Part shown: positions 1,774 to 6,047 of the stretch, piece by piece
How positions within the stretch are numbered: position 1 is the first letter of the stretch
Layout of the letters: every line of letters starts with the position of its first letter
Position numbers and translations under genes: made by a program
From: Chaetoceros tenuissimus
Taxonomy: Eukaryota; Bacillariophyta; Thalassiosirophyceae; Chaetocerotales; Chaetocerotaceae
Direction of reading: 5' to 3'
DNA: 64,000 bases
Assembly: GCA_021927905.1 (NCBI GenBank)
Contig: BLLK01000029.1
Location: 558,001 to 622,000 of the forward strand
Notes under the pieces: model-generated
What the model was told of the DNA's origin: nothing
Databases searched by the model: none
The model's input: only the letters and a program-made list of their open reading frames with translations

Positions 1774-1905
1774 GTGCATCAACTGATGAGCGTTAGCGAA
1801 ACGGTTAAATTTGAGATTTTAGTGGGAATGAGCTCGCCGAAATTGAGTTTGTTTTTCTTCAACACTTTGCAAAATCTTTTGTCAGTCTTACTGTTTTGAT
1901 AGCAC
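1774..1905 (+). ncRNA. Candidate type I hammerhead ribozyme in the retroelement 3' tail
   Basis: Positions 1783-1802 match the hammerhead core exactly: CTGATGAG, a 2-bp stem II (GC 1790-1791 with GC 1796-1797, loop GTTA), then CGAAAC. A type I fold is available. Stem I pairs ATCAA (1778-1782) with TTGAT (1896-1900) and, after a bulged A at 1901, GTGC (1774-1777) with GCAC (1902-1905). Stem III pairs ACGGT (1801-1805) with ACTGT (1890-1894). This places GUU at 1893-1895 at the cleavage site, so the predicted cut is after 1895. Hammerheads are known in Penelope-like elements. The roughly 84-nt stem III loop is atypical, so the core match is firmer than the outer stems. Confidence 0.65.
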
Positions 1906-2121
1906 CTAAATTAATACAGTCCTTCGGGATAAGTTTTGTTTACATTTACGGTTAATTCCTAGAATACCGTCTCATCGCAAGCATCCTTCCAGTCCATATA
2001 AGACCAATAACAACAGCAATTATGGAATCATGCTGGCAAACGTACATCAGTCTTTGTTCAAATAATTACGATGAAATTTGCCAAATTGAACAGACATTTT
2101 AAAGTTACATAGTACAACTAA
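1906..2121. other. Non-coding stretch between retroelement tail and gene-fragment block
   Basis: AT-rich sequence with stops in all frames and no gene that I recognise. It may still contain the 3' end of the retroelement, but I see no target-site duplication that would mark the boundary. Confidence 0.4.
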
Positions 2122-2897: not shown

Positions 2898-3320
2898 TTA
2901 GGAGTCCAAATTGAGCTGTCTCAGAGAAGCTAGGTCTTCATCTGATAATTGGTTGCTCACGCTTTGGTTTAGAGATTCTCTCAACATTTGCATCGTCCGA
3001 GGATGGACTATAAGGCTGTCTCTCTGTCGGTTGTGAGCTAGCATATTCCATATCATTCTGTGATCACTTCTTTTAAAATAGAATCTAGGATCGATCTTAC
3101 GCCCTTTTTTCTTTGTCATGGCTACATTTTCGGGATGAACTTCTTCGATCCAGTCCTCGAATTTAGCGTCTTTATTCTTTGGATTGCTGATGAATTCAGC
3201 AAGATGCTCAACTATTGCCTTCAGACATGCTTCTGTGGCCTCTCGAACCATTCTTTCATTTTCTTCTTTTTCTCTCAGCTCTTGTTCTTGATTATTGTCA
3301 ATGCTTCTAGACACAAACAA
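2898..3320 (-). pseudogene. Hypothetical gene fragment, 5' end lost at the right 42-bp repeat
   Basis: Minus-strand frame of 140 codons with no ATG at its start: it opens on TTG, and going upstream it meets stops inside the 42-bp repeat. The first internal ATG would give about 117 residues. The product is charged and helical at first (EQELREKEENERMVREATEA), then has FEDWIEEVHPEN and KIDPRFYFKRSDHRMIWN. I recall this kind of motif in uncharacterised diatom proteins but cannot name a function. It converges on the HSF-like fragment, and both lose their 5' ends close to the 42-bp repeats, which suggests a copied chromosome segment. It could also be a real gene with an unrecognised first exon. Confidence 0.4.
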
Positions 3321-3344
3321 AACCCTTTGAATAAATCTAACTAC

Positions 3345-3386
3345 CGACCGCGTTTATTATGCCGTGAAGAAACTAAGCAAATAGTC
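3345..3386. repeat. 42-bp exact direct repeat, right copy
   Basis: Identical to 2122-2163. The last base (3386) is also the last base of the stop codon of the minus-strand 2OG oxygenase gene, so a rearrangement junction lies exactly at that gene's 3' end. Confidence 0.9.
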
Positions 3387-4624
3387 TATTTTTTCACACT
3401 TTCGACGATATGTTTCATTAATCTTGATGCTAGTTCGTGTTCAATACCTGCATCAATAATCATAGTCTTGATCATGGTTATTCCTGTTGATAATATCGAC
3501 TCGCAGGTACAATTCAAAATATCAACATCTCTCAATATGTCTTTTGCATCCTGTGGTACTCCAAGTAGGTTGCATATATCAGAAACTAAAACATGGCTTT
3601 GTTCGGTGTCTTCCTTTTCTATTGGTTCTGTACTTCTAAATGCTTCTTCTTCTTCAATATCTTCATTTTGCACATCATCAAAAAGAATATCAGTTCTCAT
3701 TACATATTTTGTCCCAAATAAAAGGGGTGCACCACTGTGATAGAGATCATGTTCAAACAATACCACCTGGCCAGTTTTTGGAGTAATTTTGATAGCATCG
3801 GAATCATTTTGAGTTTTGTTGGAAATTGAGTTGTGAAAGTTGAGATAAAGGGTTTCTCCTCCATCAAAATCTTCCCCACCTCCATCATTTAAATAAAGCA
3901 AGACAGTGATGTGAGATTGCATTCGTTTCCCTCCTACTGATACAAACGTTGTCGCATCAAAATGAGCAGAAAATAGATCATTGTCTTTTGCATCATATCT
4001 CAAAACTCGCATACGGGGATTCAACCCTTTTATTTCTTTCAATTTTTGCCTTTTCATATACTTGTGGAAAGATTTATTTTGTGCGAGAACCATTTTTATC
4101 TTGTCATAAATTTCATCGAGAATCATTGTTGCTGGATCTGTAGATGTCGATGATGAGGAAGGATTATGAAGGGTATCGATGGCTGAGAGTTTATGAGGGT
4201 TCGGGTTTTGAATTTGAACAGTATATGTTGTTCCATCCGGTGCTTTGTGTGATGCTTCTGTTATATATCTGAAGCCTGTGCTTGCAAGTTCTTTCAAGGT
4301 TTGACACTTCGACTCTGACAGAACATCATCAATAATGAGGGCAAAACAATTTTCAGGATCTAAATGATGCCTCGAACATTTCATAGGAAGAGCTATAGGA
4401 TGACACCTACAAAGATCAAACTCCTGCTTTGTTTTTGGTATATCTACAATTTCAACTCTTTCTTCGTCCACGTCAAGAGAAGTCAGCTCATCAAAACCAA
4501 ATCCGAGCATGTTCATAAAAGCTTCATTTGTGTCAACAGATGAAGATTGTGACTCTTCAGTATCCTCTATTTTCCAACATTCGCCTTTTGTAGAAGCAGA
4601 GCATCCTTTACTTGATGTAGTCAT
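3386..4624 (-). CDS. 2OG-Fe(II) oxygenase, prolyl 4-hydroxylase-like
   Basis: 412 aa, ATG at 4624, single exon. The catalytic domain occupies about residues 85-320. Fe(II) ligands are His222 and Asp224 (SAHFDATTF) and His297 (DLYHSGAP); Arg311 (YVMRTDILF) would bind 2-oxoglutarate. The jelly-roll motifs SHITVLLYLND, FDGGETL and TPKTGQVVLFEHD are those of P4Hc-type dioxygenases, which hydroxylate prolyl or other side chains. The first 80 residues are Ser/acid-rich, and about 90 residues after the domain form a helical tail I do not recognise. No signal peptide, so probably cytosolic or nuclear. The stop codon sits on the edge of the 42-bp repeat, so the C-terminus may have been altered by the same event that built the neighbouring block. 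Confidence 0.8.
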   Translation of the reverse strand: MTTSSKGCSASTKGECWKIEDTEESQSSSVDTNEAFMNMLGFGFDELTSLDVDEERVEIVDIPKTKQEFDLCRCHPIALPMKCSRHHLDPENCFALIIDDVLSESKCQTLKELASTGFRYITEASHKAPDGTTYTVQIQNPNPHKLSAIDTLHNPSSSSTSTDPATMILDEIYDKIKMVLAQNKSFHKYMKRQKLKEIKGLNPRMRVLRYDAKDNDLFSAHFDATTFVSVGGKRMQSHITVLLYLNDGGGEDFDGGETLYLNFHNSISNKTQNDSDAIKITPKTGQVVLFEHDLYHSGAPLLFGTKYVMRTDILFDDVQNEDIEEEEAFRSTEPIEKEDTEQSHVLVSDICNLLGVPQDAKDILRDVDILNCTCESILSTGITMIKTMIIDAGIEHELASRLMKHIVESVKK

Positions 4625-5007: not shown

Positions 5008-6047
5008 ATGCCCAAGAAGAATGTAAATGACCCTCCGAAATCTGAACTAAAACCTTTGACTGCTGATACAGATCTTTCTTCTGATCTATCTGCTAATGAA
5101 ACACCATCACAATTTATTGACAGTTGTAATCCGAAGGGTCAAACTTCACCTTTAGATTCAGGTATATCTCAGTCATCTCCTTTATCTATTGCAGCAACTG
5201 CCAGGGTCAACAGGGTTAATCACTGGCGCAATCATGAGTTTGCTGTAGGTTTGGTGGAACCGACCTGGGCGGATGAAATCAACCGTTCGACTCATAGTGA
5301 CTATGACAGTGACACTGAAGCAAATGGTCCAAATCGTGAATGTTGTTCTGATGCTGGAAACAAAGAAATGGACCCAACATGTGGGTGTTTAGCCATCACG
5401 GGACATGTATGCGGTAAATTAGGATATCGGCGCATTGGCAACATGGTCGTTTTGAGAGAAGGATATGAAGAGATCGTCAATAGTAAAGGTGAACATGTTC
5501 GTCGAAGAAAGATCAGCATGGTAGTCGGACCATATTGGCCAATGCTTGTCTTTGTTACATATCCATTGATTTTATTTGTCAGTTTTTGTGCTGCTGTGAA
5601 GGGAGTGTTTATTGTGAATTTCAATCCACTCGTTGTATGCAGCTGGACAATTCTGACAACTGGACTAGTTGTCTCTCTATTCTTCACCTCGTGTACTGAT
5701 CCAGGTATATTGAGAAAACATGAAGAGCCTCCGAAGGGGGATTCTAGCGGTCGATGGAGATGGAACGATAGAGTCCAATCATATGTTCCAACTGGTGCTG
5801 TGTACGACATTGATTGCGCTGTGGTTGTAGAAGGATTTGATCATACGTAAGTACACTGAGTCTGTTTCAATATGTTTAAACATCTCTTAGTTGGATATGT
5901 TGTTATTGACCCATTTTTCTATGTAGGTGTCCGTGGACTGGAACAGCCATTGGAAAGAATAACATGATTTACTTTCAAGCCTTTATATTTTTCCTATTTT
6001 CCTCTCTTATCCTTGATGTCATTCTCATCACATCGGCTTCCATATAG
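5008..6047 (+). CDS. DHHC-family palmitoyltransferase-like protein with DHTC motif
   Basis: Two exons: 5008-5846 and 5927-6047, with an 80-nt GTAAGT...GTAG intron splitting the Thr codon of the motif; 319 aa. The Ser-rich N-terminal half is followed by two membrane segments around residues 175-230, the DPG-type motif CTDPGI, the sequence GFDHTCPWTGTAIGKNNM, and a third hydrophobic stretch at the C-terminus. The family transfers palmitate from the Cys of DHHC to protein cysteines on endomembranes. Here that Cys is kept, but of the zinc-binding cysteines in the cysteine-rich domain only one is recognisable, and NC after the motif is TA. Only about 30 residues follow the motif, so the usual fourth membrane helix seems absent. 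The start is the first ATG of the frame. Confidence 0.75.

Follow-up and report, generated by a model that had tools for sequence, protein, structure and literature searches.

The question raised by the locus described here is whether the tail of a retroelement in the diatom Chaetoceros tenuissimus encodes a hammerhead ribozyme, and what such a ribozyme may do for the element. The stretch analysed, hereafter the window, comprises 64,000 nt of contig C21 (G000:C21:558001-622000) within a searched genome of 41.0 Mb. It opens on the 3' part of a Penelope-like element with two open reading frames (ORFs), arranged as terminal repeat, ORF1, telomerase-like reverse transcriptase (RT) and terminal repeat. 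Hammerheads are already known in Penelope elements, endonuclease-less ones included, according to the accessible text of three reports (PMC6155905, PMC7761336, PMC6431247). We consider it probable that positions 1774-1905 on the plus strand are a type I hammerhead core with its stems, located in the terminal repeat of a Penelope-like element without a detectable endonuclease domain, and that it cuts the RNA of the element after position 1895.

The hammerhead motif and its relatives

The conserved core, CTGATGAG-N6-CGAAAC, can be read directly from the window at 1783-1802, and each fixed base named in the initial annotation is present at the coordinate given there. The core pattern assigns CUGAUGA to 1783-1789 and GAAA to 1798-1801, and by pair comparison these are separated by the stem II hairpin GC-GUUA-GC at 1790-1797 (2 bp closed by a loop of 4 nt, GUUA). 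Stem I pairs the 5' strand GTGC-ATCAA at 1774-1782 with the 3' strand TTGAT-A-GCAC at 1896-1905, giving 5 bp, one bulged A as the only interruption, and 4 bp. Stem III (5 bp) pairs ACGGT at 1801-1805, with A15.1 as its first base, to ACTGT at 1890-1894, with U16.1 as its last, and the cleavage triplet GUU occupies 1893-1895, where the letters and the folding place the predicted cut after 1895. With three helices, an open end at stem I and GUU as its NUH triplet, the motif is of type I, and the letters and coordinates of the type I drawing proposed earlier are right. The arm closed by stem III (1806-1889) is exactly 84 nt long, as had been estimated; it is no open loop, and both folds, unconstrained and hammerhead-constrained, contain a predicted inner hairpin at about 1813-1878.

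Three related elements, whose RTs are 37-42% identical to that of the window element (family A), carry a hammerhead at the same place. Family B (L042-L044; RT 41% identical, ORF1 of 394 aa) is found in the same genome, and families C (L073) and D (L074) represent the same element type in head-to-tail tandem order. The motif is present in 4/4 families whose DNA extends over the 3' terminus of a long RT ORF, as well as in the B variant L049. The cleanest hammerhead is that of family D, ACCGA-CUGACGA-GUCC..GGAC-GAAA-AGACU..AGUCU-UC-UCGGU, and that of family B reads GCCAA-CUGAUGA-A-GGC..GCC-GAAAC-AA..UUG-UU-UUGG. Stem III measures 4-6 bp across the four families, and the span from GAAA to U16.1 is 92 (A), 26 (B), 17 (C) and 64 nt (D). 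The core was not found in the locus of an RT fragment on C38 (L052), nor the core pattern in the C29 fragments L050, L051 and L054, all of which stop short of an RT 3' end. L073 has another core of canonical appearance at 3047, rejected by eye for want of a closing stem I. L073 and L074 stand on contigs titled as Desulfobacteraceae and Binatia metagenome-assembled genomes and bear a eukaryotic-type retroelement; these contigs are probably contaminants in those bins.

Stems I and II differ between the four families yet remain complementary, and at the level of sequence it is this family comparison that carries the case for a hammerhead, despite the Rfam and folding results given below. Contiguous pairs were counted outward from the core with strands assigned by hand, in place of a covariance model, because MAFFT alignments put the hammerhead cores in wrong places. 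Own-family strands of stem I form 5 (A), 4 (B), 6 (C) and 6 (D) pairs; the 5' strands of A and D form 4 pairs with the 3' strand of B, and the remaining 10 swaps give 1-3 (5' strands A-D against 3' strands A-D: 5 4 2 1 / 3 4 2 1 / 2 2 6 1 / 3 4 2 6). In the same layout the counts are 2 1 1 1 / 1 3 3 1 / 1 1 4 1 / 2 1 1 4 for stem II and 5 4 4 1 / 3 4 4 1 / 4 4 4 1 / 1 1 1 6 for stem III. The initial annotation had held that a lack of covariation among related copies would speak against its reading; stems I and II do covary across the four families, and stem III sets D alone apart from the other three.

Counter-evidence and alternative explanations

A number of results weigh against a ribozyme that is active today. 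The search with Rfam covariance models, suggested as a check in the initial annotation, which had named the lack of a hammerhead match as refuting its reading, gave no match on element A at gathering level and seven matches up to E 10, none of them a hammerhead. Likewise no hammerhead was listed for B, C or D, and RF00163 over the genome gave nothing above its cut-off (73 of 5682 candidates scored), with one match elsewhere at E 4.35. The cut-off is a detection threshold and not a defining chemical feature, and the same search also misses L074 despite its canonical core. The models missed all four hammerheads examined, so that protist hammerheads may be undercounted. The miRNA-like Rfam matches at 1626-1703 were discarded, being merely a perfect hairpin upstream of the ribozyme.

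Folding, the other computational check suggested, does not return the hammerhead as the minimum-energy structure: the free fold of element A has -30.5 kcal/mol against -25.4 kcal/mol for the hammerhead-constrained fold, and a non-hammerhead fold is favoured in all four families, by 5.1 (A), 3.8 (B), 5.1 (C) and 1.5 (D) kcal/mol. The rival helix in A, B and C pairs the GAAAC strand onward into GUUUU across the cleavage site, and the folding energy of the A region is unremarkable against shuffles (z -0.12). Because folding programs give hammerhead core contacts no energy credit, the preference for the free fold is a weak argument against the hammerhead.

The sequences themselves add further points. 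In the B core an additional base precedes stem II; the C core shares this insertion and has another base after A6, and an insertion of the latter type is described as poorly active in the accessible part of one report (PMC3088659). A9 is replaced by T in the second tandem copy of D. Stem III is weak evidence among A, B and C, since strands from different families among these pair with one another (3-4 pairs). The core CTGATGAGCGTTAGCGAAA stands at 12 places, 11 of which are identical over 134 nt; the twelfth, on C43, carries two base changes in stem III, of which one turns a G-U into A-U and the other a G-C into A.C, without clean compensation. A copy of A on C29 has G12 changed and one inserted base. 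Finally, hammerhead mutants of a lizard Penelope element still inserted in vitro, and no reads started or ended at the cut, as stated in the available text of that study (PMC11167929); thus the hammerhead may be dispensable for insertion.

Such data could be explained by a relic, derived from an active ribozyme that has lost cutting and is kept only because the copies are young, which we regard as unlikely. The 11 identical copies are possibly just recent, free folding predicts another structure, core insertions occur in B and C, and A9 is lost in one of the two D copies. However, every fixed core base is kept in A and in one D unit although their RTs are only 37-40% identical, and stems I and II have changed yet stay paired, as those of a relic would not.

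It is distinctly improbable that the motif instead acts, in the manner suggested for telomere-attached Terminons, as a 3'-end structure for positioning the template or for binding the RT, with cleavage being secondary. Elements with hammerheads beside the 3' end have been published (PMC6431247, in the portion available), the lizard hammerhead needs a protein and is dispensable for insertion in vitro (PMC11167929, likewise), and the stem III arm could bind a protein. The telomeres of C. tenuissimus consist of TTAGGG, in a 41 Mb genome with many retroelements, according to the accessible text of the genome paper (PMC8613185). Against such a structure, 85 nt follow the cleavage site, the ribozyme is not at the end, and neither TTAGGG nor CCCTAA occurs in the 220 nt from the core onward in the left copy; the arm length is also not conserved, as the four spans from GAAA to U16.1 differ.

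The bare core pattern CTGANGA..GAAA occurs 11 times in the window against 9.4 expected and has no discriminating power. A strict descriptor with the stems at their observed lengths has one match in the window, at 1783 (both strands searched), and matches 0/300 dinucleotide-shuffled windows, while a looser one, requiring 4 or more inner pairs and 6 or more pairs in all for stem I and 3 or more for stem III, is found in 9/300. For tails of 400 nt, a generous descriptor gave 1 (A), 2 (B), 4 (C) and 0 (D) matches per 20,000 shuffles each, figures that are not blind, since the descriptor was widened to fit B and C and the families and strand assignments were picked after looking. A chance resemblance in an A+T-rich tail, to which the frequency of the bare core and the blindness of Rfam might point, is hardly credible beside the empty shuffled windows under the strict descriptor, and is in effect refuted by the motif at the same place in 4/4 related tails.

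The element, its copies and its surroundings

The element that carries the probable ribozyme is whole in locus L035, which reaches upstream of the window. Its left repeat lies at C21:555970-556347, ORF1 (368 aa, with a basic C-terminus) at L035:299-1405, and the RT ORF (678 aa from the ATG at L035:1501) at L035:1501-3537, or C21:557571-559604. The 3' part of this RT ORF, 534/678 aa, occupies 3-1607 of the window, followed at 1604-1981 by the right terminal repeat, or pseudo-long terminal repeat (pseudo-LTR), the same 378 nt as upstream of ORF1 (both on the plus strand). The hammerhead is present in both repeats, whose common 3' end is ..CTCATCGCAA (1980), usually then G. In the left copy the predicted cut falls 107 nt upstream of the ORF1 start codon, and the segment 3' of the cut in the window (1896-1980, plus strand) would form the first 85 nt of this 107-nt leader for the next ORF1 of a tandem transcript. 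Between the RT stop and the ribozyme there are two hairpins on the plus strand, one at 1629-1695 with 19-nt arms that are 100% complementary and an imperfect one at 1697-1744 with 18-nt arms (83%). Hairpins similar to the first are reported in families B and C, and family D has none of at least 14 nt. The 95-nt stretch that separates ORF1 from the RT start codon (L035:1405-1500) resembles an imperfect hairpin when inspected by eye, which was not reported by the repeat search at 20 nt or more.

A comparison of folds was needed for the RT because a PDB sequence search gave nothing below E 0.44, and the best structural match of its AlphaFold model is telomerase RT. The RT has 891 homologues in the protein database (7,996 candidates scored; best 120 listed), and ORF1 has three matches at E 0.001, one of which is from C. 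tenuissimus. The tail had been described initially as that of a Penelope-like element without a detectable GIY-YIG domain, and this is borne out on the whole element, where neither ORF1 nor the full 678-aa RT has a Pfam match to GIY-YIG. Moreover, no GIY-YIG motif was found in six proteins or in the six frames of the A unit, and no GIY-YIG chain is among the 50 structural matches listed, which mostly span residues 29-574 and are therefore uninformative for the C-terminal 100 residues. A Pfam scan of the RTs of A, C and D, the homologues P0004, P0010 and P0075, and ORF1 of A and B gave no RT or nuclease family, only matches below the curated cut-offs; two Pfam accessions are listed for RT homologues, one of which, PF26215, is outside the profile library used. 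Viral contigs, searched with a pair of individual proteins, an alignment and the RT part in the window, yielded no relative, and neither did the phage collection.

The element family looks recently active. The tail of A has at least 32 matches in the genome, several of which are the hairpin matching itself, and six complete RT ORFs are present. Tandem or partial-tandem units with pseudo-LTRs and variable 5' truncation, as typical of Penelope, are observed. Some other A copies are without the core through truncation; the hairpin at 1629-1695 is mostly deleted in two adjacent copies on C19, and 24 nt of it are missing in one copy on C16. Core-bearing copies lie well inside contigs in 11 cases out of 12, the remaining one (C50) being 0.7 kb from a contig end. 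Host flanks 3' of CTCATCGCAA differ between copies, or the next unit follows. The flank starts with G in 7/9 distinct flanks (L001-L016) and with GTAA in three, compared with GTTAGA as the next bases of the element, a bias that may reflect microhomology during priming. Among 15 hand-listed free 5' ends (8 of A, 7 of B), five fall no more than 20 nt from the base that directly follows the predicted cut (binomial P 0.018), a clustering that is a hint only: just one, on C62, lies within 1-2 nt of this base, the end at C21:555887, lying against the A insertion, is not an independent case, and the detection of short fragments depends on BLAST limits. The fragment concerned, a family B 3' fragment at C21:555887-555970 (L003, L064), stands head to head with the left repeat of A and directly abuts it.

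About 135 nt beyond the 3' end of the element begins a direct repeat of 48 nt (98% identity), with its copies at 2116-2163 and 3339-3386, 1,223 nt apart, which may frame another mobile element. Further downstream, inspection by eye suggests a possible 2-oxoglutarate dioxygenase-like ORF at 3386-4624 (minus strand) and a possible DHHC-type membrane protein at 5008-5850 (plus strand).

Proposed role and comparison with known systems

Judged from the layout of the units, the hammerhead likely serves to cut tandem transcripts into monomers that start 107 nt upstream of ORF1. Head-to-tail tandems are seen in two relatives (C and D), and element A has the order repeat, ORF1, RT, repeat. A read-through transcript of such units would contain one hammerhead per unit, and cleavage by all of them would yield monomers that begin with a 5'-OH 107 nt before ORF1 and terminate in GUU, the leader being composed of 85 nt of the repeat and 22 nt before ORF1. 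Translation and reverse transcription of each unit would then have a fixed starting point, whatever the position of the promoter. Tandem units would need monomerisation, and one ribozyme per unit could supply it without a protein nuclease; having its own stem III, it would fold without a second copy, unlike the minimal forms in which Penelope hammerheads are mostly described.

A more speculative idea, which we consider improbable, is that the hammerhead of endonuclease-less diatom-type elements is a switch, in which GAAAC either completes the core or zips into the UUUU of the cleavage site, a pairing that would lengthen stem III and conceal the cut. The long arm of stem III, with 92 nt here and 64 nt in L074, would then serve as a handle that lets the RT or the ORF1 protein of the element decide whether the RNA is cut into monomers or kept whole as a template. 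C. tenuissimus strains are available in culture. The in vivo activity and role of Penelope hammerheads are called a mystery in the accessible part of a review (PMC7761336), and an apparently recently active diatom element with a real stem III makes that role directly testable.

The word Penelope is absent from the main text of the C. tenuissimus genome paper (PMC8613185), and we found no report of a hammerhead in a diatom or stramenopile Penelope-like element; key papers of 2007, 2014 and 2017 were beyond the search and no priority is claimed. Penelope hammerheads, as presented in the accessible sections of two reviews (PMC6155905, PMC7761336), likewise are of type I, located in the terminal repeat, at both unit ends, and accompanied by a telomerase-like RT; they are usually minimal, without helix III, and may act as dimers. 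The diatom element and its relatives differ from these minimal forms in a stem III of 4-6 bp closing 17-92 nt. Protist elements reportedly carry stable monomeric forms, as Cervera and de la Pena are said to have described in 2014. The long stem III loop had been thought new, but it is a predicted structured arm, and L074 is also long (64- against 92-nt GAAA-U16.1 span).

The rotifer endonuclease-deficient elements, or Terminons, as far as the available text describes them (PMC6431247), share two ORFs, an RT ORF without GIY-YIG, a hammerhead near the 3' end, and 5'-truncated and tandem copies. Endonuclease-deficient members are an accepted subgroup of Penelope in the same text, so that the novelty initially seen in a hammerhead beside an ORF lacking GIY-YIG had been anticipated. 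The diatom element is unlike Terminons in having no telomeric repeat after the ribozyme, a repeat-to-repeat spacing of about 3.6 kb, and 11/12 core-bearing copies well inside contigs. Poseidon of Anolis, in the accessible text of its description (PMC11167929), has the same tandem units, pseudo-LTR and hammerhead, but carries GIY-YIG and has a ribozyme that overlaps with the start codon and required protein for cleavage. The diatom hammerhead is a well-supported new example of a known pairing of ribozyme and retroelement, and not a new kind of system.
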